From positions 1 to 50,002 of the IMG/VR virus record IMGVR_UViG_3300020583_000019: a stretch of 50,002 nt of DNA; one strand, given 5' to 3'. This stretch comes from a virus. Positions 19,178 to 49,345 of the stretch are shown here, piece after piece; position 1 is the stretch's first letter, and each line of letters begins with the position of its first letter. A model generated the notes under the pieces. The model had not been told where the DNA came from, did no database searches, and worked only from the letters and a program-made list of their open reading frames with translations. Position numbers and translations under genes: made by a program.

Positions 19178-19941
19178 TCAAATGTCGCCGTGTCGAAGGC
19201 AACCGTATTCCCGCTGCTGTTGCCTGTCGTTAGAGTGGAAGTCACCGAAGATTGCGTCGTCGTGTAAATCTTGTACTCCGTAGCGCCGAGCATCGAACTG
19301 CACGCGCTGGCAATGTTGGCGAGTGTGAACCCACTACCCGCCGCGCCTGTCCACGTTGGGCCGCAGTTCGTGTCGTCGGCCATCGAAGAAATTGCTATCT
19401 CGTTCGCCACGGCGGTTGTGTAAGTGTTCGAGGTAAGCGTTGCGCCAGCGGTCCCGCCAACGACAGTCGGATGTGCGTCCGCGCAACCTGACGTGACCGA
19501 GTGATTGAACGCCGTGATCGTAAGCGTCTCATCTTCCGCCCCGGTCAATGTGAAGGAGAAAAATCGGACGTTCGCGGCTGCGTTGCAGGTATAGAAGAAT
19601 TGCGTGTTTGGAGACCCACCGGAAGTTCCCTTTGTGAGCGAAGTATAGGTACTGGCTGATGAGGTGCAGGTTGCATTCGTCGTACTATCGCAGACGGTAG
19701 GAGATGCCGTACCGGGTCCACCCGCGAAGGTGATACTGAGAACGATTCCGCTCCCAGCCGCGATTGCCGATCCGAAGTCCACCGCGCTGACTGTGGCTAC
19801 TGTTCCGCTGTCAACGGACTTCGTTCCGATGATGGAGATGGAGCCGCCACCTCCGCCGCCCGAGCCAACCGCTCCTGTGCGATTCGGCACTGTGGGGGAT
19901 TGCTGCCAGAGCAGCGCGAATAAGCAGAGGGCCAGTCTCAT
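19174..19941 (-). CDS. Exported Gly/Thr-rich protein
   Basis: A 255-aa protein with signal-like start (MRLALCLFALLWQQSPT) and then GSGGGGGGSISIIG. The rest is beta-rich with spaced cysteines and repeated VxSVxSTL-like strands. AGGAG precedes ATG 19941, which overlaps the previous stop (ATGA). No catalytic motif recognised. It probably forms part of a surface complex with its coupled neighbours. Confidence 0.65.
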   Translation of the reverse strand: MRLALCLFALLWQQSPTVPNRTGAVGSGGGGGGSISIIGTKSVDSGTVATVSAVDFGSAIAAGSGIVLSITFAGGPGTASPTVCDSTTNATCTSSASTYTSLTKGTSGGSPNTQFFYTCNAAANVRFFSFTLTGAEDETLTITAFNHSVTSGCADAHPTVVGGTAGATLTSNTYTTAVANEIAISSMADDTNCGPTWTGAAGSGFTLANIASACSSMLGATEYKIYTTTQSSVTSTLTTGNSSGNTVAFDTATFE

Positions 19942-24230: not shown

Positions 24231-24703
24231 GGCAGCACCCGGACGGAGTACGTTTTAGAAGTTGGCGTTAAAGCCAAAAGAGCACAAACATTAACCGTCA
24301 CCGTATTCGTCGCTGTCACCGTTGCGGTGATTGAGGTTCCTAAAGCAGCGATGTTCGTTCCGTCGCTCGCCGTGGCAATCGCTGGCATACCTACCGTAGC
24401 TCCGGTAACTGTCGCCGTTCCAGAAGCACAAGCCCCAACCAAGAGAGCGCCTCCACCGATTGATCCGGTTGTTCCGGTCATCATGCCGGAAGTTGCTCCC
24501 AAGACCCACACTGATGCCTTACAACTCCAAGCGTATCCCGTAGAACTGTCCGTGTACGTGCTGCCTGAAACACAAGAACCGGATGGAGCGCCGCTGCCAT
24601 TCTGCGTAGACGTACCTGGGAGTTGGCCGCCGCGTGTGTATGCAAGCCCCGCTATAATCAAGCAGAGGAATACAACAAGAACTGGATTCAGTTTGCTGTG
24701 CAT
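24227..24703 (-). CDS. Small exported/anchored fibre-tip-like protein
   Basis: A 158-aa protein with hydrophobic N-terminus LNPVLVVFLCLIIAGLAYT. After a Cys-containing SGSTYTDSSTGYAWSCKASV module, the C-terminal domain (GACASGTATVTGATVGMPAI ... NTVTVNVCALLAL) is the same type as the end of the 1430-aa neighbour. Overlaps the upstream gene by 16 nt. Possibly a receptor-binding or chaperone-like partner. Confidence 0.6.
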   Translation of the reverse strand: MHSKLNPVLVVFLCLIIAGLAYTRGGQLPGTSTQNGSGAPSGSCVSGSTYTDSSTGYAWSCKASVWVLGATSGMMTGTTGSIGGGALLVGACASGTATVTGATVGMPAIATASDGTNIAALGTSITATVTATNTVTVNVCALLALTPTSKTYSVRVLP

Positions 24704-27210
24704 GTCACCCGCCAAGTATCGCTCGCCGTTGGTGCCGTGGCAGCCGCCACGTCGCTAAAAAGCTGTAAGGTCACAGACGTTGTGCTCAAAGCGCCCGTCT
24801 GCTGAATGATGAAGTTCGTCGTTGAGATCGCACTTACGTGATTCGCTTCGCAATGCCAGTCTGTTGTCGCCGCTGGCATTGTGACCGTGCAGCCTCCAGA
24901 CGTTGGAGCCGTTCCAGTGAAGATGTTGAAAGAGGCTGTACCATTTGGCGCTGAGATCGCCGCCGCTGAACCACCACAGCCAGCCGCCGCGATAGTAGGG
25001 GCAGTTGGCGAAATAAGTAAATTTGCTCCACCAAGAGGAACCTGCCCGAACGCTCCGTTGTTGTAACTGCACTTTAGTGCATGGGCCGTGGAATCGCCGT
25101 AACAGACATCTTGACTAGCAATTCCAGTCGGTGCGGCGATTTCTTGTAAGCCTAACTTTGGAATCTCAATACCACCTTTGTTGCTTTGAATGATTCTAAA
25201 AAGTGGAAGCCCGTAAGCAAGCAAATCGTTCTGTGAGTAGACATCGAAGGTGTCGTCCTGTGTGCCACAGCAAGAAAGCGATGAGTAATGATTAACCTTA
25301 GGACCAACAATGTTGACTGTTGGTGAGTGAATTGTGTCGCTGATAATTTCCGACATTGAAGCGCCACAGCCGGAGTAGGAGTTATCCATCGTGACTGTAT
25401 TGGTTCCAGCAGCCACGGTTTCGGCTATCTTCATCCCTATAGTCGCGCTCGCTCCCGAAATGCAGCCGAAGAAACCATTGCGAATGGCTACGTTATTTCC
25501 GTTGTTTACGTTCACCCCGATTTCGCCAGCGGAGTTGAACTCCATATACACACCATCAAGTTTTACGCCGCCGACCTGATTTGTCCCTGTGGCTTGAATG
25601 TCGATGTTAGCTTTTCCAGGTCCGGCGTGGTTGTATGTCCCGCCGTTCACGTTCACATTCACAACGCAGCATTGAGCGGAAGAGATGAGAAGGGGTTCTT
25701 CTGTTCCCGTGCCTGCTAGGTTTACATAGTTGTTGTCGAGATTGATTGGTCCAACAGTGGAACCCGCTCCTGTATTCGTGATTCTAATTCCGTTGGTATT
25801 GGCAAAGCCGCCCAGCACCATTTCCTGAATGCGGCTGGAACTCGTCATGTTATTTGTGTCGATGACGGCATTGGCGATTGTAGCGGATGGGCTGCCTTGA
25901 ATCGTGCATCCGCGAAGATAGCCGGTCCATTCAGCGCCAGTGCGCGGATAGGATGCAATGATGGAGTTGGCTACGAGCGTGGAAGTCACCTGCCAACCGC
26001 CTGTGCCGGTCCCACCGGTATTGATTCCGTCGCATGAGATGGTACTGTTCTTATACAACTCGATCATATCCACGCCGGAGTGGTTTCCAGTGAAGGTAAG
26101 TTGAGCCGAGCGGTCAATGGTGAGGGTAATGCAAGCCCCTCCAGAAGTACCGATAATCAGCGGCGGACTGATTGTTTCAGAATACCCTACGGGAACGTGT
26201 ACCTCTGGACATCCTTGAGCTGCTGCCCCTAGCGCCTGCGCTCCAGTTATTGCGGCCTGAATGGTTGTGTACTTATTGCCGTCAACAATTTGAGTTCCAT
26301 TCAGGCTATAAGAGACGATGATATTCTGCCCCGCAGTTTGAGTAACATTTCCTGATAGTGTCGTCGGTCCCGTAAACGCTCCATTTAGTGCTCCGCCCCC
26401 GTTGGCGGATAGCGTTCCGCTTACTGTTGGGTTCCCACTCAAAGTTGGATTCCCGGAAAATGTCCCTGTTATCGCTCCCGGTCCTGTCAAGTTCGTTGCT
26501 GTCGTTGCGCTCGTTGCCGAAGTCGCGCTCGTCGCCGTTGCCGCGTTGCCTGCGAACGTGCTAGAAGGGTTGGAGAATGTCACCACCCCGCTCTCTGTGT
26601 GCGTACCGCTAAAACTTCCTGTGATTGTCCCTGGACCTGCCAAATTGTTTGCTGTACCTCCGGGAACCACCCATGTGGTGCAGGAATTTCCGCTAATGGC
26701 CGTGCAGGTTTTTGTGGATGTGGATACGAGGTTGAAATACGTAGAGCCGAGAGCCGCACCGGTTACTTCGCTATCCGTGTATGCCAAAACAGGAGGTTGA
26801 GTGGATTGCAAGTTGATGAGGATGGCGGGAGGTGTAGCGTTCAGCGTTTGCGTTGCTCCGGTGATCGTGATGTTGCTGACCGTGAAGCAACCCGAGCTTG
26901 CCTGTGGGCAGAACGTAGCGGTCCACTGGCTTTGGATGGGAGAGATAGCTGTGTTCGATGGGATGCTTACGGAGTACGTCCCTGTTCCGCTTAACGAGCC
27001 GCCGAAGTTTGTTGGCAGCGTGCCGCCTGTCCATGTGTACGGACCTACGGGATTCGCTGGACTGGGAACAAAAACAAAATTGAAAGTTCCGTTATTCCAC
27101 GTCTGCGCGCCAGCATCAGTGATGGTGCCAGAGACCGTGGTTGACTGCGAAAAAGCATGGGCGGAGGACAAGAGAAGAAGTCCGAGCGTAAGAAGGACTT
27201 TGCGAAGCAT
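24688..27210 (-). CDS. Exported beta-helix fibre/adhesin
   Basis: An 840-aa protein from ATG 27210 (GTGAGG upstream). Sec signal RKVLLTLGLLLLSSAHA, then QSTTVSGTITD and a domain paralogous to that of the 1430-aa protein. SATSATSATTAT linkers follow; residues about 295-700 are a beta-helix (TIQAAITGAQALGAAAQG ... LTIDRSAQLTFTG). The C-terminal domain (ISPTAPTIAAAGCGGSAAAI ...) is a type I associate with phage fibres. TTG 27258 in frame was rejected because it would bury the signal. Confidence 0.75.
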   Translation of the reverse strand: MLRKVLLTLGLLLLSSAHAFSQSTTVSGTITDAGAQTWNNGTFNFVFVPSPANPVGPYTWTGGTLPTNFGGSLSGTGTYSVSIPSNTAISPIQSQWTATFCPQASSGCFTVSNITITGATQTLNATPPAILINLQSTQPPVLAYTDSEVTGAALGSTYFNLVSTSTKTCTAISGNSCTTWVVPGGTANNLAGPGTITGSFSGTHTESGVVTFSNPSSTFAGNAATATSATSATSATTATNLTGPGAITGTFSGNPTLSGNPTVSGTLSANGGGALNGAFTGPTTLSGNVTQTAGQNIIVSYSLNGTQIVDGNKYTTIQAAITGAQALGAAAQGCPEVHVPVGYSETISPPLIIGTSGGACITLTIDRSAQLTFTGNHSGVDMIELYKNSTISCDGINTGGTGTGGWQVTSTLVANSIIASYPRTGAEWTGYLRGCTIQGSPSATIANAVIDTNNMTSSSRIQEMVLGGFANTNGIRITNTGAGSTVGPINLDNNYVNLAGTGTEEPLLISSAQCCVVNVNVNGGTYNHAGPGKANIDIQATGTNQVGGVKLDGVYMEFNSAGEIGVNVNNGNNVAIRNGFFGCISGASATIGMKIAETVAAGTNTVTMDNSYSGCGASMSEIISDTIHSPTVNIVGPKVNHYSSLSCCGTQDDTFDVYSQNDLLAYGLPLFRIIQSNKGGIEIPKLGLQEIAAPTGIASQDVCYGDSTAHALKCSYNNGAFGQVPLGGANLLISPTAPTIAAAGCGGSAAAISAPNGTASFNIFTGTAPTSGGCTVTMPAATTDWHCEANHVSAISTTNFIIQQTGALSTTSVTLQLFSDVAAATAPTASDTWRVTCTAN

Positions 27211-27254
27211 AGAATCCTCACTGTGGAAGATTCTAGTACCATTACTACTGTAAC

Positions 27255-27374
27255 TCAATCATCTTCTTCGTCCATCTCGGGGATTTCGTCGTCCTCAGCG
27301 GACTCGTCCTCTTGCAGGATGTCCTCGGATTCGTCTATCGCGTCGGGCATGTCAGTTGAAAACGAGTTCAACAT
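27255..27374 (-). CDS. Very acidic 39-aa protein
   Basis: ATG 27374 with GGGAG upstream; alternative ATG 27350. Of the last 30 residues, more than half are Asp or Glu (DESEDILQEDESAEDDE and so on). Overlaps the preceding small ORF by 23 nt. Could act as a DNA mimic or assembly aid; unproven. Confidence 0.4.
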   Translation of the reverse strand: MLNSFSTDMPDAIDESEDILQEDESAEDDEIPEMDEEDD

Positions 27375-27456
27375 TCCAGCACACTCCCAACGTCACTATC
27401 CAGAATTGAAATTGGAAGTCGCTCTTGCCTCCAACGATCTGCCAGATTTCTGGCAT
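27352..27456 (-). CDS. Possible 34-aa protein
   Basis: MPEIWQIVGGKSDFQFQFW followed by a hydrophobic end. GGCGGGG lies about 15 nt upstream, which is rather far. Included as the only gene-like reading of 27375-27478; low confidence. Confidence 0.3.
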   Translation of the reverse strand: MPEIWQIVGGKSDFQFQFWIVTLGVCWNVELVFN

Positions 27457-27478
27457 CACTTCAGCATCCCCGCCTCTC

Positions 27479-27844
27479 TCAACTGCCGTCGTGCATGTCC
27501 ATGTGCCACCGCATCGCTCCGTTTGCGCTTTCGTAGGTTCCGAACTCCTCAGTATAGCCACAGTCGCATGTCACCTTATGAAAGCCCGTTCGGTTGGTTC
27601 CCTTGTAAGGCAGTTGCAGCATCGCATGGGCTGTTAACTTTCCATCGCCCATCATTTCTCGTTCAAGTTCTTTCGTCCACCCAGCAATCGGTCTTTTCAT
27701 AAGACGATAACCAGCATTTTTCGTCATTTCCAAATCCGCAATGGACGGAGAGTTTTTCTTTTCTTCATCTTCACTAGCGTATTCCCATCCAAACGGCAGC
27801 ATCCTATCTGGTTGCATCGCCCAGCGATAAAACAAGTCAGTCAT
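27479..27844 (-). CDS. Hypothetical protein with Cys knuckle
   Basis: A 121-aa protein; ATG 27844 overlaps the ATP-grasp stop (ATGA). Acidic first half (EYASEDEEKKNSPS), then FHKVTCDCGYTEEFGTYESA and a His-rich MRWHMDMHDGS tail that could bind metal. Coupling suggests it works with the ATP-grasp protein or the fibres. Family unknown. Confidence 0.65.
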   Translation of the reverse strand: MTDLFYRWAMQPDRMLPFGWEYASEDEEKKNSPSIADLEMTKNAGYRLMKRPIAGWTKELEREMMGDGKLTAHAMLQLPYKGTNRTGFHKVTCDCGYTEEFGTYESANGAMRWHMDMHDGS

Positions 27845-29106
27845 TTTAGCATCCCTTCTTCCCGCAGTTTCCGGTAGCGTTTACAGGCAGCTTCGCAAAC
27901 GTCGGTTCGATACTGTGCATTAGGTACTCGCACTTCTCGCAACATCTCATATGCAGAATCGAAGGCTTGTCCTGGCGTCTCACCCACAGCCAATGGACTG
28001 CCCACCCATCCGCAAAGTCCCGCCGTTTCCAATTCGTCCGAATCTCCACGCTTCCGCACATCGTAGATGTAGAAGCGGTCAAGGTTCTTTTCGTGCAGTC
28101 CTTCGATGGGCACGCCTGCTTTATAAAACTTGTCCGGTAAACCTTCGCAAGGATACGGCGGCACGGACAGTCGAACGGAGGCACAGAAGGGATGTTTCAA
28201 AATCATCTCCGGTGGTCGCTCCTCGGATGCAACCGCGTAGAGAAAGTCTCCGAATCCCATCGGCAAAAGGCGTGTTAGTAGTGCGGTCGCATCGTAGCCG
28301 AACCGTGGCGTGAACTCCAGCGCCCAGGTTCCTTCCGCGTTCGTGATCGTGTTCAGGTCTATGGGACCCACGTAGCCGAGTTCTTGTAGTGGCTCCACGC
28401 ATTTTTTAAGTCCCTTCTCGAATAGCGCGTTATCCTTGCGCGACATCCAGCACAGCGATCCGCTGCATCCCGTGTTCGGTCCCAATTCCCCGTTTAGAAA
28501 TTTCTTCGTTTCGATTGTGTGGTTCAGCGCATAGTAGCCGGTGGAGTTTATGTAGACTTCCGTACTCGCTTCCACGCCTTCAACGAAGTCCTGCAAGATG
28601 TACTCGGAAACTTTAGCAGAACGAAAGAGCACGTCGAAGTACCGGAGCATGTCTTTCGCATCGCGGGAAACGTAGGTCGTGGATTTGTCGTCCTGCTCGC
28701 CAATCGGCTTGAACACGAGTCGCTTGTCGCGTTTCTTGATATGCCGGATGCCGTCCGCTGGATTGTCGAATGCTTCCCACGGCGCAACCAGCAAGCCGCA
28801 GCGCGTCATAAAATCCAAGCCGTAGATGCGATCTTCTTCGAGGGTGTCGGCTAATTCGGAGTCGCCAATGGTGGGAACTTCGTTGCTGGCTTCGTCTGCG
28901 TCTTTACCTTGCCCAGTGGCATCGAATACCACGCAGTCGTAATTACCGGGAGACACTTCGTTACCGGGCATTGTGGTAACGAGTCCTCCCAACGCCTCGG
29001 CGTACCGTTCTTCACCAACTGCAACGGATACGTCGTTGCCCTCTTGCGCCATCAGCCAGGCCAACCAAGCGCCTTCTCCGAATTGGCTGGCCAAGCAGAT
29101 TCGCAT
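27841..29106 (-). CDS. PurD-like ATP-grasp ligase
   Basis: A 421-aa protein with the three-part layout of glycinamide-ribonucleotide synthetase (PurD). N-domain opens RICLASQFGEGAWLAWLMAQ. The ATP-grasp core has KRLVFKPIGEQDDKS, YILQDFVEGVEASTEVY and ELGPNTGCSGS (PurD: GPNTGGMG). WALEFTPRFGYDATALL matches the PurD metal-binding ExNxRFGDPE, with Asn and Asp replaced. Phages rarely need purine synthesis from a late operon, so it may ligate another amine to a virion or surface component. Substrate unknown. Confidence 0.8.
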   Translation of the reverse strand: MRICLASQFGEGAWLAWLMAQEGNDVSVAVGEERYAEALGGLVTTMPGNEVSPGNYDCVVFDATGQGKDADEASNEVPTIGDSELADTLEEDRIYGLDFMTRCGLLVAPWEAFDNPADGIRHIKKRDKRLVFKPIGEQDDKSTTYVSRDAKDMLRYFDVLFRSAKVSEYILQDFVEGVEASTEVYINSTGYYALNHTIETKKFLNGELGPNTGCSGSLCWMSRKDNALFEKGLKKCVEPLQELGYVGPIDLNTITNAEGTWALEFTPRFGYDATALLTRLLPMGFGDFLYAVASEERPPEMILKHPFCASVRLSVPPYPCEGLPDKFYKAGVPIEGLHEKNLDRFYIYDVRKRGDSDELETAGLCGWVGSPLAVGETPGQAFDSAYEMLREVRVPNAQYRTDVCEAACKRYRKLREEGMLK

Positions 29107-29115
29107 GAAGAAGTC

Positions 29116-29367
29116 CTACAGTACGCCGCCCTTTTTCAGCGGAACCGGATGCAGCTCGCGCTTGAGCGTGGACGTGTGGCCGACTTCGCGTGGCCGCGTC
29201 CGCTTGTCCGTGAACGTCTTTTCGCCTTCCAGGTTCAGATCGAACGCGCCATCCGGCGACTGCCCGTTCTGCACCGGCGAAGTGCTGCCGGCCTCTAACC
29301 CGTCAATCTGCATCGAAGCCCGCTTCGCATTCGCCTTCGCGTCATCCATATTTCCGTAAAAGCTCAT
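29116..29367 (-). CDS. Small protein beside the ATP-grasp gene
   Basis: An 83-aa polar protein with GAGGAGG before the ATG. MDDAKANAKRASMQIDGLEA helix, then a Gly/Ser/Asp-rich middle and a C-terminus LKKGGVL. Charged and probably loosely folded. Its stop lies 9 nt ahead of the ATP-grasp start. A role as ATP-grasp substrate is conceivable but unsupported. Confidence 0.6.
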   Translation of the reverse strand: MSFYGNMDDAKANAKRASMQIDGLEAGSTSPVQNGQSPDGAFDLNLEGEKTFTDKRTRPREVGHTSTLKRELHPVPLKKGGVL

Positions 29368-29401
29368 AGAGCCTCCTCGTAGTGACTACCGTAGCACATC
29401 T

Positions 29402-31096
29402 TTAAGGCACAGGGGTAGAAGGATTATCGCTCGACAACCACTTCCGAAAACGGGGACTCTGCATCAGGTGTTTCAACGTCGTCTTATAGGCCAGCAGCGG
29501 TGGAAACATCAGTTCCCACTTTGACGGTGGGCGACTGTAGAACTGGCCCTTCCCTTCCAGCATGGACTCCCGCGCCGCTTGCGGCGTGAGCGTTTTCTTC
29601 GCTGGCACTCCCGGCAAGGATGGGCGCTCGGGCATCGCTGGCGCTTTACCGCCGCCGCTAGGAACTTCTTTCAGCGCCTTGTGTAGTGCGCGAATCTTTC
29701 CCAACTGTTCTGGCTGCGCTCCCATGTTGCGGTAGCGCCCCAGATAGTCAACCGCTCGCGCCCCCGTCTCTCCGGTGATCGGCCCCAGTTTCGTGCTCGG
29801 GTCTTTTGCTTCCATGATCTTCCGCAACGGGGAGTCTCGGTCGGAGAATGTCTGCCGATACTGCTTCCAGTCGGCTTGCAGTTTGCGGTAATCCCGTAAC
29901 GCGTCCGCGCCACCTTTCTTGGCAATGGATTTTGCGATGCTGCTGTCGAGGGATTCACCCACGGTCGCCAGCGCACGCGACACGTCACGCGGCAATTCGC
30001 CCCCGCCCATTTTACGGCCGATTTTTGTGTACAGTCTCCGCGCCACGTCGAGCGGAACATCCACCACTTCCGGTCCGCCTTCCTCAAATCCCTGAGCCTT
30101 TAGCCTCTCCCGCACTTCCGGCGAAGCCTTGCTCAAGAACTCTTTCATGCTCACGCCACCCTTGCCGCCAAACACCGCCGCCTGTGATAGCGGATCTTCC
30201 GCCGTAATCTCTCCCATGATCTGCTTAAAGATGGGGAGACTCTCTCCCGTCAGTATGTTGCTCTGCGCGTGATCAATCGCCTCGGCCACTCCATCCGTTT
30301 TTACGGGAGTGTTTTCCATTCGCCCACTGAACTCCTGCCATTTCTTGCCCTCGGATTCGTTCACCTTCTGCTCGATTTTCCCAACGTGCTCGCGTGCTGT
30401 GTCTGCCATCTCATTCATTCTCTGGTAGACGGGGCCATGCTTCGAGGTAAGGGCCTCCTGCTTAACTTTTGCGGCAGTTTCTTTTGCGGAAGCCTCAGCG
30501 CGTTTCTTGAGCGCGTCCGAAACCGCTCCGGCGTAACTCTCTTTTGCTTTTTCAACTTTCTCCAGTGCCTTTGCGTGGGCCGCATCTTCCTTCGTCGCCG
30601 CCTTTTTGGTGAATGACTCCACATCCTTTTCGCCAACGCCGAGTACATCCCGAACCGCAGCTTTGCCACTTACTTTGGAAACTTTCCCTGCACCCTCCGC
30701 TCCGCCCAAGATATTCGCCGCGCTCCCTACTACTTCTCCTGGCACTGGCGTGTGGAAAGATTCTCCCGGTTTATCAGGCAGCCCCAATCCGTGCGTCAGT
30801 CCAGACGCCATTGCGTTCAGCGGGTCAATGATGTGCGCGGGGTCTTTGAGCACGTTGCCGGCGTAATTCTTTAGGCCGCTGAACATCTCGCCGCCAATCT
30901 CTTTCACCTGCCCGACTGTGCCTCCACCTTTGTACGCCGAGCGAATCTTCTCCGAATCAAGGCCCATCCCAGTAGCCACATCCATGCCAAATTTATCCAC
31001 ACCCGTAGGCTTGGCGACGACGTTCCACTTCTTCCCATCCCATGTCCACTTCTGCCCTGTTTTCGGATCGGTGGCTTCGTAGGTTGGCGGCATCAC
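29402..31096 (-). CDS. Putative ejection (internal virion) protein
   Basis: A 564-aa protein from GTG 31096 (GTGA overlap) or ATG 31093. It opens YEATDPKTGQKWTWDGKKWN, a start I know from phage internal proteins. Long helical stretches (AHAKALEKVEKAKESYAGAV) and a few amphipathic segments follow, and the end is Pro/Ser-rich. Last and largest of three ejection-like genes; expected to pass into the host envelope with the DNA. The call rests on position and composition. Confidence 0.6.
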   Translation of the reverse strand: MMPPTYEATDPKTGQKWTWDGKKWNVVAKPTGVDKFGMDVATGMGLDSEKIRSAYKGGGTVGQVKEIGGEMFSGLKNYAGNVLKDPAHIIDPLNAMASGLTHGLGLPDKPGESFHTPVPGEVVGSAANILGGAEGAGKVSKVSGKAAVRDVLGVGEKDVESFTKKAATKEDAAHAKALEKVEKAKESYAGAVSDALKKRAEASAKETAAKVKQEALTSKHGPVYQRMNEMADTAREHVGKIEQKVNESEGKKWQEFSGRMENTPVKTDGVAEAIDHAQSNILTGESLPIFKQIMGEITAEDPLSQAAVFGGKGGVSMKEFLSKASPEVRERLKAQGFEEGGPEVVDVPLDVARRLYTKIGRKMGGGELPRDVSRALATVGESLDSSIAKSIAKKGGADALRDYRKLQADWKQYRQTFSDRDSPLRKIMEAKDPSTKLGPITGETGARAVDYLGRYRNMGAQPEQLGKIRALHKALKEVPSGGGKAPAMPERPSLPGVPAKKTLTPQAARESMLEGKGQFYSRPPSKWELMFPPLLAYKTTLKHLMQSPRFRKWLSSDNPSTPVP

Positions 31097-32466
31097 TGCA
31101 CCTGCTTAACGGTTGCTCCAGGCACCGGAGGAGGCGGGGGAGCCTCTTCGCCGCCAGCGCCCATGATGGAGTATGCCTTGTCCATCACTTCGCCCAAGTC
31201 GGCCTTGCCGTGGACGATCGCGTCACGGTTCTTTTCGATGTGCTCGATGGCCTTCTGGAAACTCTTTACGTCATCCTCTGCCGATTTAATGTCATCCTTC
31301 CCCGGCCCCGTGATCCAGTGATTCGACGCGGAAGTTTTCAGCGAGCGGAGAGACTGATTCGCCTGTGCAAGTTGCTGGCGCAAGGTTGTAACGGAGTCAT
31401 TCACTTCCTTGTTCAGCTTCGTCGGGTCGGGCTTGAAAAGTTTCTCTGATTGCGCGTCCAACTTCATTCCTAGTTGTTTCATCATTATCATGTCATGGCG
31501 ATTTGAGCGCTCCTCGGCAGAGCGTTCGCGCATCGTCTCCATCGTTTGATGGAACTGATTTTGAATCTGGTCACGCTGGCGGGTAAGCTTGTCTTTCAGT
31601 TCGATCTCTTCCTTTTGCTGCGCGGCTTTCTGTTCCGCTTCCTTTGCGCGTGCCTCTTCCTTCTTCGCTTCCGCGTCCGCCCGCCCTTCTTCCTTCTGCT
31701 GTTCAAGCAAAGCCGAAGCCGTTGTCTTGTCCAGCCCAGTCGTCGTTGTCGGCGCTTTCGCCTGAATCTCTTTCGCCATTCTCTCTTTCTCGTCCAGCGT
31801 CATTTGCAACTGCTGTTTCTGGCCGAGCACCTTCATAAACGTCTCTTTGAGTTTCTGTGCCGCCGTCTGCTTCTGCGCGTTCTGCTGGTCCTGCTGCTTC
31901 TGCTTTGCCGTAACTTTCTTCAGCGCCTCCCCATACACCGTAGTCTTTTCCGGGTTGAGCCAATCCTGATTCAGCGCCTTCGCCATGTTCTTGAGCTTCT
32001 TCGGATCGCCCAGCGTGGCGTCTACTTTCTTCTGTGCCGCTGCCACCGCTTGCTGGTCGCCGCCTTGCTGCGCGGTATAGAGTTCGTTCAGCGCCGATTG
32101 CAGATAGGTCCAGTCGCCTTCGGCCTGTAGCAGTTGCTTTTCCTTCTGCGCCTTCACGCCATCCTTGATGTTCGCTCCCAGCGTGGCAAGGAATCGCTGC
32201 GTACTCCATGCGTGCGGGTTGGCTGTGTTCATGCCGATGCTTCGCGCTGATTGCAACGACTCTCCGCCAGCGGGGATGGCAGCCGGCACAGCGGTATTCG
32301 CCACCTGCTTGCGCTGCGCGGCCTGCTTAATCATCTCGATAATTTGCTGCGCCTTCGCGTTAGGGTCGGACACCTGCGGAGGCAACCCAGGCACAGCACC
32401 GCCGCCGAATGTAGGAGTCGCAATCGGCGCCAACGGAGTTTGTGGCTGCTGTTCCTGTAGGTCCAT
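31093..32466 (-). CDS. Coiled-coil ejection-like protein
   Basis: A 457-aa protein, Gln/Lys/Ala-rich. Coiled coils run from about residue 180 to 330 (EEGRADAEAKKEEARAKEAE), with Pro-rich ends (PPPPPVPG). ATG 32466 overlaps the previous stop (TAATG). Fits an internal core or ejection protein of a short-tailed phage. Confidence 0.6.
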   Translation of the reverse strand: MDLQEQQPQTPLAPIATPTFGGGAVPGLPPQVSDPNAKAQQIIEMIKQAAQRKQVANTAVPAAIPAGGESLQSARSIGMNTANPHAWSTQRFLATLGANIKDGVKAQKEKQLLQAEGDWTYLQSALNELYTAQQGGDQQAVAAAQKKVDATLGDPKKLKNMAKALNQDWLNPEKTTVYGEALKKVTAKQKQQDQQNAQKQTAAQKLKETFMKVLGQKQQLQMTLDEKERMAKEIQAKAPTTTTGLDKTTASALLEQQKEEGRADAEAKKEEARAKEAEQKAAQQKEEIELKDKLTRQRDQIQNQFHQTMETMRERSAEERSNRHDMIMMKQLGMKLDAQSEKLFKPDPTKLNKEVNDSVTTLRQQLAQANQSLRSLKTSASNHWITGPGKDDIKSAEDDVKSFQKAIEHIEKNRDAIVHGKADLGEVMDKAYSIMGAGGEEAPPPPPVPGATVKQVQ

Positions 32467-38772: not shown

Positions 38773-39732
38773 CTAAGGCCCGTAGCTGAAAAAAGTACCT
38801 CTCCAGGTGAGCGGGACCACGGAGAATCGCTGTGTTGACTTGAACAGCAGAACCTCCGTCTTAAAATCGTCATCCGTCGAAGCCATCAGCGGCTCTCTGT
38901 CGTAAAAGTTTAATTGATGGCCATCTTTGTCTGCGATCAGGCCCCAACCGTTCGGGGAAGTCAGGTAGTTGAGTTCCAACCCCTGCAAGTTTTCCGCGAT
39001 CACCCAGTTCAGTTCGTTGTTGCTCGAACCCGGCACGCCCGGAGATCCCAGAAGTTCGCGCACGTTGCGGCGCTGCTGGACGGTGTGGACCAAGTGCCTC
39101 GGCTTGACGTGTGCCGGGATGCCGCGGTCATCCGGCTGCAACGCGAACATCGTGATTGCCTGTTGCAACGAAGTCATGGTGAGGTCTGAATCCGGCGACG
39201 GCCGGTTCGGATAGGTGCCGGCAGAGTTGATGATGGTGGAAATGTTTGGTGCAATCGCGGTGGCCGATACCCCGCCCATTAGCGGCTGCGCTGTGTTGAA
39301 CAGCGATACGCCGTTGGTGGTCGTGATGGTTGCGCCAAGGTTGAACAGCGACGCAGCCACCGCTTCACGCGAGAACAGAGCAGACTTTGCGTGCGCCTTC
39401 GGCACGTTGCGAATCAGGCCGTACTTGTCGTCCGCAACCAGTTGCCGTGTAGCCTCGGTGAGCAGCCCGTACTGGATGTGAACTGCCTTCTTCGTGCCGC
39501 CCTGCAAGATGCCGTCCGCCTGCGGAGGCGTGCCTTCCTGCATGATCGGCATCGGCCCGGTGCCAGAGAGTTCGTAGAGGATTTCGTAGGCATCCTCGCT
39601 CGTCATCTCGTTCAGGTAATGCGTGTACTGCGGCGCATGTTCCTTGAGGTCGGTTGCCTGCCAGAAAATGTGACGTAACCCAGGAGCCAGAAGTGGCGGG
39701 AAGAGGTTCCTGGACATGAGGTTATTCGGCAT
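38773..39732 (-). CDS. Major capsid protein
   Basis: A 319-aa protein with GGAGG before the ATG. MTSEDAYEILYELSGTGPMP, QYGLLTEATRQLVADD and LFNTAQPLMGG match the Mu gpT-like branch of HK97-fold capsids; FKTEVLLFKSTQRFSVVPL is the final P-domain strand. No N-terminal delta domain is evident, so a separate scaffold is expected. Its ribosome site overlaps the HNH-gene promoter region. Confidence 0.8.
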   Translation of the reverse strand: MPNNLMSRNLFPPLLAPGLRHIFWQATDLKEHAPQYTHYLNEMTSEDAYEILYELSGTGPMPIMQEGTPPQADGILQGGTKKAVHIQYGLLTEATRQLVADDKYGLIRNVPKAHAKSALFSREAVAASLFNLGATITTTNGVSLFNTAQPLMGGVSATAIAPNISTIINSAGTYPNRPSPDSDLTMTSLQQAITMFALQPDDRGIPAHVKPRHLVHTVQQRRNVRELLGSPGVPGSSNNELNWVIAENLQGLELNYLTSPNGWGLIADKDGHQLNFYDREPLMASTDDDFKTEVLLFKSTQRFSVVPLTWRGTFFSYGP

Positions 39733-42330: not shown

Positions 42331-42635
42331 TATTTGTTCTCCTTCCACTCTCGATACTCTTCTGCCAAGCCGATCAAATCCTCGAACGCTGAAATCTTCC
42401 CGCGCAAAAAGTTTTGCTCCGCAACATCCACTTCGCTCCGTGGGACTCCGTGCGTGATCTCATAACTGTGGGCCTGCACCTTGTCCCGAAGGTCCGCCAG
42501 CAGCACCGCCCACTCCTGCCCCTGGACCAGCACCTCCACCGCTTGCTCGCTGCCGAACAAGTTCGGCCATCTTTTGGATGTCGAGGGGTCCGTTGCCGCC
42601 AGCAGCGGGTGCTCCGGGTTCTTGCGTTTTGGCAT
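42330..42635 (-). CDS. Hypothetical protein overlapping portal 3' end
   Basis: A 101-aa protein; ATG 42635 with GGAG upstream. SEQAVEVLVQGQEWAVLLAD and KISAFEDLIGLAEEYREWKE are good helices. The first 176 nt overlap the portal gene out of phase, where the portal reads a Gly/Ala/Pro tail. A shorter start at GTG 42479 is possible. Confidence 0.55.
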   Translation of the reverse strand: MPKRKNPEHPLLAATDPSTSKRWPNLFGSEQAVEVLVQGQEWAVLLADLRDKVQAHSYEITHGVPRSEVDVAEQNFLRGKISAFEDLIGLAEEYREWKENK

Positions 42636-44481
42636 TTTTCACGAACTCCTCAATCTCTTTCAAATCCGGGATAAATTCCTGTGGCTGCTCGGAAATCTGG
42701 AACTGCCGCACAATTTCCTGCATCAACAAAGTTTTCGAGATGATTACTGACAGCAGCCATTTTTTGTACGGGTCGGGAACTGTCGCGCTCATCAACGCCT
42801 GAATCTGTGTACTGGTTTCCTTGATGTATCCGCTCACCGCCTGGTTAAGAATAATCAGGTTTTGCTTTGTGATCTCCCGGTTCATGCTCGCCGTGGCTGC
42901 ACGAAGGGAAATTTTCAGGTCGCGGCTCAGGTGATCCGCCAGCGCCGAAGTCAGGAGTTTTTCGCTCAGGCCGGCCACTCGCGCCTTGCTTCCCAATCCC
43001 ATGAATCCGTAGAAGTCCACCACCTGCCCGATGAGCTTTACGTGTGAGTGGCGGAAGTCGGATGTCCGGTGATCGTTGCGGGAGTTTCCGTCCTGCATCG
43101 TGGAGAGCGTGGCCATCGCGCCGTACTGCCCCTTTTTGTTCGTTCCCCCAGCGCCGCTACCCCGAATGGCCGGGTCAATCCCCGCCCGCATCTTCGCTTG
43201 CTGCACCATCATCTCTTCGTTTTGCAGCGATAATCCTGTAACCGCAGCGTCCGCCATCTGGAAGTGCTCGAAAGTTCCCTTCTTCGCCGGAATGAACATC
43301 CCCGGCCACAGCGTAAAGTTGCGGTCAATCGTCTTGTTCTGATTGTCCAGCGTGTTCACGCCCAACATTCCGTAAGTGATGGCATCGTTCCGCTGATTCT
43401 TGGCCGTGGATATTTCTTCTTGGAATCCCTTTAGCATTGAAGCGAATCCCTTGCCCTTGATGGATAGCCGCGTTTCGATGATTGGTACGCGATTCTTCGG
43501 GATGAAGTTGAACACACAGTTCAGCATCGTTTTCGAGTGTTGGTGAAACCAGCAAATCAGCCGATACTTTTTCTGATTGTGCCACCACGAGAAATAGCAC
43601 TCGTAGATGTCCCACTCGGCCATCGTGTTATCTTGCGAGTCCTGCAATCCCTTTTTCTGATTCTCTCGCCGCTTGATGTCGGATGGTCCGAAGCGGTCAG
43701 GGTTGCCGAGGATTGCTTTTATCTTTTCAGGAGCAAAGTGCCCCTTATGTCCGCGCTCCATGAGCTTCCGCTTTTTCAGCGTGCAGCGCCGGATGATGGG
43801 ATCGTTGTCCTCGAACGGAATATCCGGGTTGTCTATCAGGATGTCCTCGAAGGCCAGGTTGATTACCTTCGGTCCAGCATAGAGCGTCTCGCTTTCAAAT
43901 GCTGACTTACCCTTTGTTCCATTCTCACTTGGCGGTTCGTACCCGGCGAACACTGCTTCAATACGTTCTTCTGGCGCAACACACACCCGAGCTTTCCCGA
44001 GTCCCGCTGAGTCCGTGAACCACTCGTTCTCTCGCGTATACAGGTCCAACTCTTGTGGCTCGTAAGCAACGTAGTCAATGAAACTTTCGAGAGTCTTTGC
44101 CTTCTGAGAATTCTCCCTTGCCTCTTCTTGACTGTCGGTAGCCGTGAAGTAGCGAAAGTTTGTTACTGGAGAGGTTCCCCAAATCAGTTGAAGTACGCGG
44201 GCCGACAAATCATCAACCGCTTCGGCGGCCAGAGGGTGAACGAGGTTTGAGCAATTCGGGAAGGGCCAGCTCTTATTCTTGTCTCGCGGCTCCGCGTCCA
44301 GGATGCGCCGCAACTCGGAAATCTCTTTTTCGTGTACCCGCTTCCACTTCGCTTCCAGCGCCTCAATCTGCTTGTGAATCCACTTCTCGATGGCTTCTTT
44401 GGTTTCAGTGGGGAAGGAAACAGGTCGCGGCTCGAAACTGCGTGGCTGGCGTTCGGAGATCGTAGCGGAAGGTGTCGCCAT
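42460..44481 (-). CDS. Portal protein
   Basis: A 673-aa protein. SWPFPNCSNLVHPLAAEAVD is the conserved 'W/F-P...NxxxPL' start of large podophage portals; SDIKRRENQKKGLQD, the KRLPIIETRLSIKG-like region and a helical C-terminal part follow, then a Gly/Ala-rich tail. The dodecameric ring forms the DNA entry point and docks TerL. Order TerL-portal-scaffold-capsid agrees. Confidence 0.85.
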   Translation of the reverse strand: MATPSATISERQPRSFEPRPVSFPTETKEAIEKWIHKQIEALEAKWKRVHEKEISELRRILDAEPRDKNKSWPFPNCSNLVHPLAAEAVDDLSARVLQLIWGTSPVTNFRYFTATDSQEEARENSQKAKTLESFIDYVAYEPQELDLYTRENEWFTDSAGLGKARVCVAPEERIEAVFAGYEPPSENGTKGKSAFESETLYAGPKVINLAFEDILIDNPDIPFEDNDPIIRRCTLKKRKLMERGHKGHFAPEKIKAILGNPDRFGPSDIKRRENQKKGLQDSQDNTMAEWDIYECYFSWWHNQKKYRLICWFHQHSKTMLNCVFNFIPKNRVPIIETRLSIKGKGFASMLKGFQEEISTAKNQRNDAITYGMLGVNTLDNQNKTIDRNFTLWPGMFIPAKKGTFEHFQMADAAVTGLSLQNEEMMVQQAKMRAGIDPAIRGSGAGGTNKKGQYGAMATLSTMQDGNSRNDHRTSDFRHSHVKLIGQVVDFYGFMGLGSKARVAGLSEKLLTSALADHLSRDLKISLRAATASMNREITKQNLIILNQAVSGYIKETSTQIQALMSATVPDPYKKWLLSVIISKTLLMQEIVRQFQISEQPQEFIPDLKEIEEFVKNAKTQEPGAPAAGGNGPLDIQKMAELVRQRASGGGAGPGAGVGGAAGGPSGQGAGPQL

Positions 44482-44495
44482 GCGAGGATAGTACC

Positions 44496-46169
44496 TCAGT
44501 AACCCCCTGCCCCGCTACCCCGATTTTGGAACGCTTCCTGTTGCTCTTGCAGAAATTTATCCGCTCCATGCACCACGTCAATCGTGGCCGTGAAGTCCCC
44601 GAGAACCGCGAGTGTATCCACCGCGCCGCCCGGATACATGCCCAGTTGGGTGAAGAATTTCTTCTGGCTTTCGTGCGCCCACACTTGCTTGCCGCGCACC
44701 AGCGGCTCCAGCGCCTCAATCTTGTTTTTTGTCCCTGTTTGCGAATCGTCGTCCGGGAATGTGTTCACGGTCAGCCGCGTTGCTCTCGGCTCCAGCCGGT
44801 CACGCTGCTTGATGTAGAAGTCCAGCAGTTCCGCCGACCGCTCGCCCATCCAAAACGAATCCAGTTTCCACCGCTTCGCTGTCTTGTAAATCTCTTCCAC
44901 CAAATCGGAATACTTGGAATCTTCGGCGTAGAGGGACATCAGATAGATTCGCGCCGTCTCCACGTCATAGCCGACCACCCAGATTACGTGTTCCTTCCGG
45001 TTGACCGATTTCGCATCGTTCGCCCCAACGATCATTCGGAGAATCAATCCTCCCGGTTGGAAGTCGTTGAGCACTTCTCCGTCGTACACTTTATGCTGCA
45101 AAAGCAAAATATTTCGCAGGTCGTCCAGTTTCAGTTCTGGCCGAGATTGCTTGAACTTAAACTTCCGCAACCACTCGGGATCGAACAGGCGCTCGCCGGG
45201 TAGGACGTGCTGGCAGCGGTAGAAGTGTTCGTAGTCGCCTTTCGTGCCGCTCGCATCCAGGCGTAGTTTTTCCTTGTGCAGCAACTCCATCGTCCACTCG
45301 GACGGAAGAATCGGCTGCCCTGCCGGATGCAGCTTGCAGCATCCTCCTTCGGCATCGTGCGTCTCGAACGAAAAGTCGGGAAGCTCTGCGCGAATCCATG
45401 CGTTGATGTCGGCGTGGCACCACGGGTTTCCGATTACAAGTTGGCGGCGGTCTTTCTTCACCTGGGGGTCGTAGCGCGTTCCGACTTGCTGAAACCAACT
45501 GATAGTTTCCTGCGCTACCTTGCCGTCGCCGCGAAGCACCGACACCTGCGCTTCGCGTCCAAAAATGTCGTCGCAGATCACGCCTTTAACGTGGATGCCC
45601 TGCAACGTCTGCCCCACGCCGCGATACTCAAATGTGCCCGTGGACGCATCGGCCCCCGGCAACCGCTTCTGGTATTTTGTGGCGTTATTCCAGATACACT
45701 CTTTGTCGGGAATGATTTCGCGGAACACATTTCGGAACACGTCGTTGTGCTCGTACACCGCGTCCACGTCGCGGCCAATCGCCGTCGCCTGTCCTGCAAT
45801 TTCGTGGCACACCAGCGTCCGCATATTTTGATCGTGCATCGCCTTCATGTAACGAATCCACGCATCGCCGTAGCCGAGTTTCCGCATGTTCTCCTCGTCA
45901 ATCATCGTGAACGGGAGCGCCCAAAAAATGGAAAGAGCGATACCAAGTCGAGTTTTGAAATGCGACATCGGAACTTCCATGACGAGGAACAAGTGTTGGT
46001 TCTCTAAACTCTTGCAGAGATGGGTGTGGAGCGTGGACAGGCGGGTGTAGTTGAGGACGTGCTTTGCGAACCAGTACAGGCTACCGAGCGAGTTCAAACG
46101 TATCGCTCGAAAGTGGCCGTCGTAGTCAGAGTCTACAGTGGGGACCGGAATGACTTTCCAGCGAGGCAT
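44496..46169 (-). CDS. terL: Terminase large subunit
   Basis: A 557-aa packaging motor. Walker-A-like FLVMEVPMSHFKTRLG (Lys72, Thr73) is a deviant form of PxxxGKS/T. GVICDDIF supplies Walker B; FRNVFREIIPD, EYRGVGQTLQG and LVIGNPW are ATPase landmarks. VVGYDVETARIYLMSLYAED starts the RNase H-like nuclease with its first Asp. ATG overlaps the previous stop (TAATG). No clear TerS is seen; the two small genes just upstream are candidates. Confidence 0.9.
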   Translation of the reverse strand: MPRWKVIPVPTVDSDYDGHFRAIRLNSLGSLYWFAKHVLNYTRLSTLHTHLCKSLENQHLFLVMEVPMSHFKTRLGIALSIFWALPFTMIDEENMRKLGYGDAWIRYMKAMHDQNMRTLVCHEIAGQATAIGRDVDAVYEHNDVFRNVFREIIPDKECIWNNATKYQKRLPGADASTGTFEYRGVGQTLQGIHVKGVICDDIFGREAQVSVLRGDGKVAQETISWFQQVGTRYDPQVKKDRRQLVIGNPWCHADINAWIRAELPDFSFETHDAEGGCCKLHPAGQPILPSEWTMELLHKEKLRLDASGTKGDYEHFYRCQHVLPGERLFDPEWLRKFKFKQSRPELKLDDLRNILLLQHKVYDGEVLNDFQPGGLILRMIVGANDAKSVNRKEHVIWVVGYDVETARIYLMSLYAEDSKYSDLVEEIYKTAKRWKLDSFWMGERSAELLDFYIKQRDRLEPRATRLTVNTFPDDDSQTGTKNKIEALEPLVRGKQVWAHESQKKFFTQLGMYPGGAVDTLAVLGDFTATIDVVHGADKFLQEQQEAFQNRGSGAGGY

Positions 46170-46350: not shown

Positions 46351-46608
46351 CTACGCCACCGTCTGATTTTTCAACCAGATTTGGTACTCATCCTCAACAA
46401 TCTTTGGTATGAGGTCCTCAGAATAAAATGGGGAAATAGCGCCCCTCAAGCAAATGGTCCACGCTTTCAGGACTGAAAACAATCTCTCTCTGTATTTAAA
46501 TGGAAGGCTTTCATTTAGGAGGGCTTGATAAATACTGGCACTCCCTTTCGCGTACTTACGCAGGGATTTTTCAACGGCCAGTTTGTTCTTAATCGTTTGA
46601 TCGTCCAT
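46351..46608 (-). CDS. 85-aa helical protein, candidate TerS-like
   Basis: MDDQTIKNKLAVEKSLRKYA opens a small helical bundle (IYQALLNESLPFKYRERLFS). ATG 46608 overlaps the previous stop (TGATG). Placed two genes upstream of terL where a small terminase is usual, but no HTH is certain. Confidence 0.55.
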   Translation of the reverse strand: MDDQTIKNKLAVEKSLRKYAKGSASIYQALLNESLPFKYRERLFSVLKAWTICLRGAISPFYSEDLIPKIVEDEYQIWLKNQTVA

Positions 46609-47186
46609 CACGCCACCGTATGCAACGCCGCGCTGCGCTTCACCTGATTCTGTTCCAACGCTCCCACCATGCGCGACAAAATTTCTCCATCCCGCAAGAT
46701 TACCAGTGTCACCTTGACGACTTTGTTTTTCTGGTCCACGCCTTCCAGGTCGTAAGCGTGTCCTGCAAATGACGGATAGATGCACTTGTCGCCACGCTTC
46801 CACGCATACTTCACTTCTGGTCCGATGCTAACAATCGTTCCGGTTGTCGGGCGTCCCTTGTCTTTCTCGGGTATTACAATGGCGCCGCCTTTGCCGCCGC
46901 AATCAGGGCAGATGCGCCAGCCTTCGCCGTCACAATCAGAGCACTTCACGGTGAGCGAGGCGTTTCCTGCCTTTAGCCTTCGGCCGCTTCCCTTGCACTC
47001 TTCGCAGGAGATCGTGGATACTTCTTTGCCATTCACTGTGCGCTTGCCTTCGTCCAAGCAAGTCTTGCACTCGAATCCGGAGCGGTAGTCGTCCTGTAAA
47101 ATTATTAGGCGATCTGCGTGGGCCTCGAATCCAGCCGCGCCAACCCAGATTATATTTTCACTGAAGTTTGTTGCGATGTCCGGCAT
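46608..47186 (-). CDS. GroES-like co-chaperonin with DnaJ-type zinc finger
   Basis: A 192-aa protein with GGGGAGAG before the ATG. Residues 25-33 (DRLIILQDD) and 99-173 (GGAIVIP, TTGTIVSIG, WKRGDKCIY, VILRDGEIL) follow the GroES beta-barrel order. Between them, where GroES has its mobile GroEL-binding loop, sit four CxxC knuckles (Cys40/43, 61/64, 82/85, 93/96), three of the form CxxCxGxG as in the DnaJ zinc finger. It probably helps the host chaperonin fold capsid protein, as T4 gp31 does, with a zinc finger as substrate or GroEL contact. Upstream of terL. Confidence 0.8.
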   Translation of the reverse strand: MPDIATNFSENIIWVGAAGFEAHADRLIILQDDYRSGFECKTCLDEGKRTVNGKEVSTISCEECKGSGRRLKAGNASLTVKCSDCDGEGWRICPDCGGKGGAIVIPEKDKGRPTTGTIVSIGPEVKYAWKRGDKCIYPSFAGHAYDLEGVDQKNKVVKVTLVILRDGEILSRMVGALEQNQVKRSAALHTVA

Positions 47187-47196
47187 TTCTCTCCCC

Positions 47197-47484
47197 TTAC
47201 ATCTTGATCGAAGATTCTACCAACGCGGTAACTTGATTCTTCATGTCTAGGCGAGCAACAAACGGTTGCGGCTGTCCCGGATGGCCTGCAAGCGGAAGAG
47301 TTACTTGCAGCACCAACACATCTGCGGTCAGTTGTGGCTGACCGTTCTTTTGCGTAGGGTTGGCAATACCCAGTGACAGCCCACCGTTCTGAACTTTCAC
47401 GATCACGCCAGAGAACCATTCGGTTCCGTACTTCACCATCACGCAGTCTCCCGCCGCTAATTCATTGTTGAGCATATCTCGCAC
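47197..47484 (-). CDS. Small SH3-like protein
   Basis: A 95-aa protein from GTG 47484 (overlaps TAG). AAGDCVMVKYGTEWFSGVIV and VLVLQVTLPLAGHPGQPQPF suggest two small beta sheets. Precedes the co-chaperonin gene by 10 nt. Family unknown. Confidence 0.6.
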   Translation of the reverse strand: MRDMLNNELAAGDCVMVKYGTEWFSGVIVKVQNGGLSLGIANPTQKNGQPQLTADVLVLQVTLPLAGHPGQPQPFVARLDMKNQVTALVESSIKM

Positions 47485-48345: not shown

Positions 48346-48537
48346 ATGAAAGTTAAACCAACCCTAGAGGTTCACATCTGCGGTTTGAAGTCGCGTGACC
48401 CGAAGTTCTTAGCTGCTTTGGCGGCGATGTTCAAGGCGGCGCACAAGCAATTTGCAAAGGTTGAAGTTTGCGGAATGTGCGGCGATTTTTTGGATGCAAA
48501 AGGATATTGTTCTTCTTGTGACGCGAAGGCTAAATGA
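48346..48537 (+). CDS. Zn-ribbon small protein
   Basis: A 63-aa protein from ATG 48346 (no Shine-Dalgarno). FLAALAAMFKAAHKQFAKVE helix, then CGMCGDFLDAKGYCSSC ribbon. An in-frame TTG 48337 lies in the promoter. Ends 1 nt before the next ATG. Confidence 0.65.
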   Translation: MKVKPTLEVHICGLKSRDPKFLAALAAMFKAAHKQFAKVEVCGMCGDFLDAKGYCSSCDAKAK

Positions 48538-48538
48538 C

Positions 48539-49345
48539 ATGCAAAGAGTCTTTGGGTACAGCACGGGTAAGGATTCCACGGCGCTGATTCTGTGGGGAAA
48601 AGAGCAGTTCCCTGCGGAAGAAATAACCGTGATTACGAACGACACAATTTGGGAACATGAACTCGTCTACGGGTACTTGGCAGAAATGCGAGACGATCTT
48701 TTGAAAGGGTTGCGCTTTGAACTCTTGCCATCAATGGGAATGGAAAAGTTGGTGGAGATTAAACATCGCGTGCCTTCGGCGAAGGCACGCTTCTGCACCG
48801 AGAATCTAAAAGTAAAACCAACTATTGAGTTTCTGAAAACAATTAACGATGAGTACGAACTGTACGATGGAAAACGTAGAGATGAAAGCGATTCTCGCTC
48901 CCAGCTTCCAGAACGCGAGTGGTCCGATCACTACGACTGCTGGGTGAATCACCCTCTTGCAAATTGGACAGTTGAACAGGTTTTCGCTATCGCCGCCAAG
49001 TACAACATAAAACCTAATCCTCTGTATCTGTTGAACGCTGGAAGAGTTGGGTGTTTCCCCTGTGTGCTCATAAATCACCGCGAGCTAAAATCGTTTTTGC
49101 TTCATCCAGTTCTTGGACCGGAAGTTCGCCGGCGAATTAAACGCCTCGAAGAAATTTGCGGGAGAAGTTTCTTCCCGCCAAACTATATCCCCAAGCGGTA
49201 TATGACTGGGCGCGACCCTAAAACCGGGAAAGTTTTTCCGTGGTCAGATGATGTATTCACTTACTTGGATATGAAAACTCTGGCCGAGTTGCCGTGGGAG
49301 GAATCGAAGAGTTGCATGAGTATCTACAATCTCTGTGAGAGGTGA
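48539..49345 (+). CDS. PAPS reductase-like ATP-pyrophosphatase family protein
   Basis: A 268-aa protein. The PP-loop is YSTGKDSTA (residues 7-15), with the usual SGGKDS changed to STGKDS. ARFCTENLKVKP, GKRRDESDSR, and GRVGCFPCVLINHREL with its CxxC match the phage/DndC-like subgroup rather than assimilatory CysH, whose C-terminal ECGxH motif is absent. It may activate a substrate for sulfur transfer to nucleic acid or act in defence evasion. ATG 48539 directly follows the previous stop; extended upstream ORF lacks similarity. Confidence 0.8.
   Translation: MQRVFGYSTGKDSTALILWGKEQFPAEEITVITNDTIWEHELVYGYLAEMRDDLLKGLRFELLPSMGMEKLVEIKHRVPSAKARFCTENLKVKPTIEFLKTINDEYELYDGKRRDESDSRSQLPEREWSDHYDCWVNHPLANWTVEQVFAIAAKYNIKPNPLYLLNAGRVGCFPCVLINHRELKSFLLHPVLGPEVRRRIKRLEEICGRSFFPPNYIPKRYMTGRDPKTGKVFPWSDDVFTYLDMKTLAELPWEESKSCMSIYNLCER

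Follow-up and report, generated by a model that had tools for sequence, protein, structure and literature searches.

Bacteriophage T4 gp31 (PDB 1g31), which works with host GroEL, is a phage-encoded co-chaperonin that has no roof loops and a longer loop than GroES, and it serves the T4 capsid protein (PMC6318259). In GroES itself, GroEL binding depends strictly on each of two mobile-loop residues, I25 and L27 (PMC5575113). The type I Hsp40 DnaJ has a cysteine-rich domain of four CxxC(xGxG) knuckles, in which zinc centre I is reported to bind substrate and zinc centre II to contact DnaK (PMC4428491). A DnaJ-like finger is also found in the chloroplast protein BSD2, a Rubisco assembly chaperone that acts downstream of the chaperonin and keeps hold of the Rubisco subunits (PMC5859369). 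Here we describe a phage protein, and a family of its relatives, in which a co-chaperonin and a finger of this kind are joined.

The window, by which we mean the whole stretch of DNA analysed, is a complete IMG/VR virus record of 50,002 bases. Its minus strand carries a 192-residue open reading frame with an ATG start (Table 1), in which, as the original prediction had claimed, four CxxC motifs, three of them CxxCxGxG, sit between the segments DRLIILQDD (residues 25 to 33) and GGAIVIP (residues 100 to 106). The gene has a good ribosome-binding site, AGGGGAGAG, ahead of its ATG, and a gap of 10 bases separates it from the 95-aa gene upstream. The 95-aa gene lies beside the finger-GroES gene in about 10 relatives, all of the close clade, and has no Pfam family above the curated cut-off and no convincing PHROG match. 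Elsewhere in the window, a PAPS reductase-family gene (positions 48452 to 49345, plus strand; Pfam E=2.5e-20) is encoded on the other strand from the late genes, and a run of large late open reading frames (1108, 1430, 856, 564, 457 aa, and others) occupies positions 15851 to 32466 of the minus strand. These large frames gave no PHROG or Pfam match where searched and presumably encode proteins of the virion or tail in a phage group that has yet to be described.

Table 1. Features of the finger-GroES gene and its neighbourhood in the window
Feature	Position	Strand	Evidence or remark
Whole gene (192 aa) for the finger-bearing GroES-family co-chaperonin	46608..47186	minus	Pfam, alignment, fold, hhalign
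First barrel strand and start of mobile loop (DRLIILQDD), residues 25-33	47088..47114	minus	model, hhalign
Inserted DnaJ/BSD2-type zinc hairpin with four CxxC, residues 40-96	46899..47069	minus	Pfam, alignment, profile, hhalign
C40/C43, predicted outer zinc site, first half	47058..47069	minus	in 68/68 relatives
C61/C64, predicted inner zinc site	46995..47006	minus	lost in four separate relatives
C82/C85, predicted inner zinc site	46932..46943	minus	lost in four separate relatives
C93/C96 (last CxxC), predicted outer zinc site, second half	46899..46910	minus	in 68/68 relatives
Putative GroEL-binding tripeptide IVI, residues 103-105 (GroES I25-V26-L27)	46872..46880	minus	alignment; role from PMC5575113
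Remaining Cpn10 barrel without roof hairpin, residues 113-175	46662..46850	minus	profile, alignment
95-aa gene	47197..47484	minus	directly upstream; neighbour kept in close clade
85-aa gene	46351..46608	minus	directly downstream; ATG overlaps finger-GroES stop codon (TGATG)
Terminase large subunit	44496..46169	minus	conserved neighbour downstream, same strand
Portal protein (SU10-portal/head-tail adaptor family)	42460..44481	minus	conserved neighbour downstream, same strand
Major capsid protein, 319 aa, candidate client	38773..39732	minus	downstream of terminase and portal

The Pfam Cpn10 family matches residues 101 to 150 of the window protein above its cut-off (E=5.3e-7; 30.0 bits versus a cut-off of 21.1). 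When the finger was excised in silico, hhalign aligned the remaining core with residues 3 to 96 of the 96 residues of cellular GroES, first strand included (99.2%, E=5.9e-20). The whole core aligns end to end with both cellular GroES and finger-less phage GroES, and the loop motif is the same; for example, the loop of Bacteroides phage SJC03 reads SG-IIIPDSS, and that of the window protein reads SG-(finger)-IVIPEKD. The mobile loop of GroES, ...ESKSAG-GIVLPDSAKEKP..., corresponds to ...DYRSG-(finger)-GAIVIPEKDKGRP... in the window protein. The GGAIVIP segment, which had been taken for a strand of the barrel, thus aligns with GGIVL, the stretch of the GroES mobile loop that binds GroEL. Because the finger-free remainder is a complete GroES that includes the gripping tripeptide, the finger is not "in place of" the mobile loop, as first proposed; the alignments place it as a clean insertion into a complete loop, immediately before IVI. 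In a profile built from 68 relatives, matches to solved Cpn20 and Cpn10 structures (2e-16 to 8e-3) start at profile position 92 to 94, and matches to BSD2 (2.6e-4) and to the DnaJ finger (5e-4) cover positions 45 to 93, so the junction between finger and core is sharp. The roof hairpin is missing, with about nine residues absent between VSIGPEV and KRGD.

The predicted fold likewise matches co-chaperonins. The AlphaFold model of a single chain of the window protein (18 sequences) has a pLDDT of 77.8, with low confidence at residues 35 to 37 and at about residues 100 to 110, which are the two arms of the loop. When this model was compared with the PDB by Foldseek, ranks 1 to 18 all went to co-chaperonins or to Cpn20-type chains from chloroplasts (T4 gp31 was 14th), and the GroES chains among the top matches had a TM-score by target of 0.53 to 0.65; in the viral structure library, the top matches are mostly annotated phage or viral GroES. 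The model of relative L107, built from 53 sequences (pLDDT 90.2, pTM 0.77), has a GroES as its sole convincing structure match (E=4.7e-5). Based on the Pfam match, the hhalign comparison, and the predicted fold, we consider it virtually certain that the window protein is a GroES-family member with an inserted finger, which bears out the original prediction of a phage GroES/Cpn10 barrel whose mobile-loop position carries a DnaJ-type finger.

The window protein resembles T4 gp31 in being phage encoded, in its Cpn10 fold and hydrophobic gripping segment, and in lacking the roof hairpin. In contrast, gp31 has no finger, its loop is just slightly longer, its gene does not neighbour terminase and portal genes, and it shows no close sequence similarity to the window family. 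The analogy with gp31 would be one of function and architecture, with the finger as the new element.

The finger region (residues 40 to 100) matches the Pfam DnaJ_CXXCXGXG family at E=1.4e-5, although its 25.7 bits are under the family cut-off of 32.7. When the finger alone was compared with cellular DnaJ-type fingers by hhalign, the match had a probability of 97.8% (E=8.4e-13), and the resemblance is firm once relatives are included, as in the 68-member profile. The C40/C43 knuckle reads CKTCLDEG and lacks the GxG, and the other three are CxxCxGxG. All eight cysteines are invariant among 18 aligned relatives, and this conservation rules out a chance origin of the motifs. The finger is predicted to bind two zincs in the manner of DnaJ and BSD2. 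By position, we take knuckles 1 and 4 (C40/C43 and C93/C96) to be the equivalent of DnaJ zinc centre I and C61/C64 to be that of centre II. The identification of the insert as a DnaJ finger probably stands as far as the cysteine-rich module is concerned, but no J domain was matched in the window protein by Pfam, and the nearest other solved match is BSD2. Because there is no J-domain match, we conclude from these comparisons that the window protein is not a DnaJ and that only its finger is DnaJ-like.

Compared with the DnaJ cysteine-rich domain, the family's finger has four knuckles in the same order but shorter hairpin tips, and it sits inside a GroES loop. BSD2, which likewise lacks a J domain and has a double zinc hairpin of the DnaJ type, would be a close functional parallel for the finger, since a place in the chaperonin pathway and the binding of an oligomerising client are both features of BSD2; it differs in being a free-standing plastid protein that is not fused to a co-chaperonin. 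The GroES of Helicobacter pylori (HspA) is a natural metal-binding co-chaperonin with an extra Cys/His module, the C-terminal histidines of which have reportedly been the subject of a study. The HspA module, however, is a short C-terminal tail that contains no DnaJ-type finger and is not in the mobile loop.

Relatives were sought in IMG/VR from the terminase first and then with growing alignments of the finger-GroES protein. The same fusion, for which a search of other phages had been proposed, was found in about 70 distinct relatives on about 90 viral contigs; a single IMG/VR scan gave 92 confirmed stretches, and 70 distinct motif-carrying proteins were present among those fetched. The finger is present in every relative, even though, of the two patterns used in the search, one covered the barrel alone. 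Cpn10 is matched at E<=0.01 by 63 of the 68 relatives and exceeds its cut-off in all 10 that were scanned singly. Among the three closest copies (the window protein and two near-identical relatives), dN/dS is about 0.07 to 0.09, and their fingers are identical in amino acid sequence. Both GroEL-critical positions are hydrophobic in 59 of 68 relatives, versus about 7% expected from composition; in the remaining 9, at least one of the two is not hydrophobic. This degree of conservation argues that the grip on GroEL has most likely been kept in the window protein.

Throughout a large clade, with few exceptions, the gene is upstream of the terminase and portal genes, either adjacent to them or a few kilobases away. 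This association supports a late virion role, but for one clade only, since in the distant clade (L175 and L194 examined) the gene follows DNA polymerase and primase genes. The distant-clade DNA polymerase is split into two open reading frames (L194, 2223 to 5663; L175, 2439 to 5185), and in L194 an HNH endonuclease gene sits between the halves. In L112 (2659 to 5397) and L111, the terminase reading frame, 913 aa in length, is broken after VPMSHFK by a LAGLIDADG homing-endonuclease-like stretch; in L112 this insert ends at IPTHN/TRLG and is an intein near the ATP-binding motif.

Searches outside this set yielded no fingered GroES. A tblastn search of 50,697 phage records with the window protein gave no match, and a divergent relative used as the query against phage records found just finger-less GroES and unrelated multi-knuckle megaphage proteins. 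Two megaphage records of about 635 kb (L205, 580 to 1989; L208, 17 to 1528) encode related-looking unannotated proteins with long terminal CxxCxGxG arrays. No further members were found with a fixed-spacing DNA pattern. One row, L210, had been translated in the wrong frame and was left out of account. Matches in a scan of bacterial and archaeal contigs were confined mostly to the cysteine-knuckle part, and the single match that appeared to run deep into the barrel, L134, belongs to a DnaJ of the ordinary kind. With the family profile, no fingered cellular GroES was detected among 493 sampled genomes of two phyla: all but three of the cellular GroES matches start at model positions 96 to 102, which is the end of the finger, and the three exceptions, whose matches are unusually long, proved on reading to be ordinary GroES. 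In the literature searched, in which coverage of subscription journals and preprints is incomplete, we found no description of a GroES-finger fusion, as the original prediction had anticipated, and the family is apparently undescribed.

The finger varies widely in length and sequence among the relatives, while the loop motif stays. None of the 68 relatives has lost the outer cysteine pairs. Four of them (L181, L192, L202, and L204), unlike DnaJ, hold the outer site alone, and in a tree from which the columns of the finger and the roof insert had been removed each is nested among two-zinc relatives, which implies four changes. Three others (L107, L149, and L161) carry one more CxxCxGxG pair, located at the position of the roof, for which three changes are needed. 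Because the tree has few columns (132), the losses of the inner site and the gains of roof pairs are best read as having occurred "several times." Retention of the outer site and loss of the inner one fits a client-binding job without DnaK, although it is no proof of such a job.

Taken as a whole, the explanation that we favor, at somewhat better than an even chance, is that the protein is a cap for host GroEL whose finger binds phage clients. Its parts are not equally secure. From the sequence and the model, it very probably works as a GroEL lid; that the finger contacts clients rather than GroEL alone is a more tentative proposal, to which we give a little less than an even chance. Seven copies would form the lid, as a presumed heptamer, and the lid would close the host's GroEL in infected cells, as T4 gp31 does. 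Host GroEL is taken as the partner because none of 43 viral records has a GroEL gene, compared with 14 of 14 control genomes, although a phage GroEL may be missed in records that are fragments of up to about 50 kb. At the zone of contact between lid and chamber, seven fingers could bind non-native or newly folded virion proteins and so concentrate them at the chamber or hold them for later assembly. An insertion so near the tripeptide could, however, hinder GroEL binding. Client capture by the finger and a part in capsid folding are reasonable proposals, but a capsid client cannot be a general one, because the distant-clade gene adjoins those for DNA polymerase and primase. At just 319 aa, the capsid protein is small enough for ordinary GroES, which weakens the notion of a large capsid protein in need of a bigger cage and makes such a need less likely here.

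The main rival, which we consider rather unlikely, is that the finger never touches clients and is instead a structural part of the lid-chamber contact that stiffens or lengthens the loop, tunes affinity or specificity for the host's GroEL, or alters the cage, an effect also ascribed to the longer loop of gp31. The position of the finger directly beside the GroEL-binding tripeptide is consistent with this, as is its great variability in length and sequence next to a persistent loop motif. Moreover, gp31 also alters loop length and drops the roof (PMC6318259), and deletion of the DnaJ finger has a modest effect on substrate binding (PMC4428491). A mere spacer, however, needs no DnaJ/BSD2-type double zinc hairpin with GxG turns that are kept over such divergence, and three separate gains of zinc pairs at the roof, far from GroEL, are left unexplained. 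It is improbable that the protein is outside the chaperonin cycle altogether, as a ring scaffold, as a GroEL decoy that blocks host folding, or in a role such as nucleic acid binding through the finger. The replication neighbourhood of the distant clade, the weakened tripeptide of some relatives, and the resemblance of such fingers to the anti-TRAP module are in keeping with a role of this type, whereas the retention of tripeptide and barrel in most relatives, and purifying selection where measurable, fit continued GroEL binding.

Slightly less probable again is a finger that serves as a redox or zinc-dependent switch, or as a thiol-disulfide helper, and either controls lid binding or reduces client disulfides. 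Every knuckle is a CxxC, and the DnaJ zinc domain has thiol-reductase activity (PMC4428491). What is conserved, however, are the chaperone-type GxG turns, and there is no thioredoxin-like WCGPC motif. In addition, cytoplasmic phage proteins rarely need disulfide handling. A last rival, in which the barrel belongs to zinc alcohol dehydrogenases, whose GroES-like domain also comes with a four-cysteine structural zinc lobe, rather than to Cpn10, can be dismissed almost entirely: 10 of 68 relatives give weak ADH_N matches (E=6.5e-4 at best), but against them stand the far more widespread Cpn10 matches, above cut-off in every member scored singly, the absence of both an ADH_N match and a Rossmann domain from the window protein, the absence of these enzymes from the leading PDB fold matches, and the position of the cysteines, which follow the GDxV strand in alcohol dehydrogenases and are instead at the mobile loop in the window protein.

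The window protein thus unites elements of two chaperones in a single small phage protein. GroES lids are usually seen as passive caps whose mobile loop has a single job, and yet in about 70 distinct proteins the loop that does the gripping accommodates and retains an entire chaperone module beside the GroEL contact. A broader reading, possible but on balance doubtful, is that a lid with its own Hsp40-type client module at the GroEL contact provides a shortcut from capture to chamber that bypasses DnaK, and that phages have elaborated it repeatedly, losing the DnaK-type inner site and gaining roof fingers. The family gives a name and a likely function to proteins that otherwise get at best a weak GroES match, and it suggests a way to design chaperonin lids that have a client specificity of their own. 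It would also offer a natural experiment on how a lid chooses its clients and, for uncultured phages, a path of virion folding that can be put to the test.
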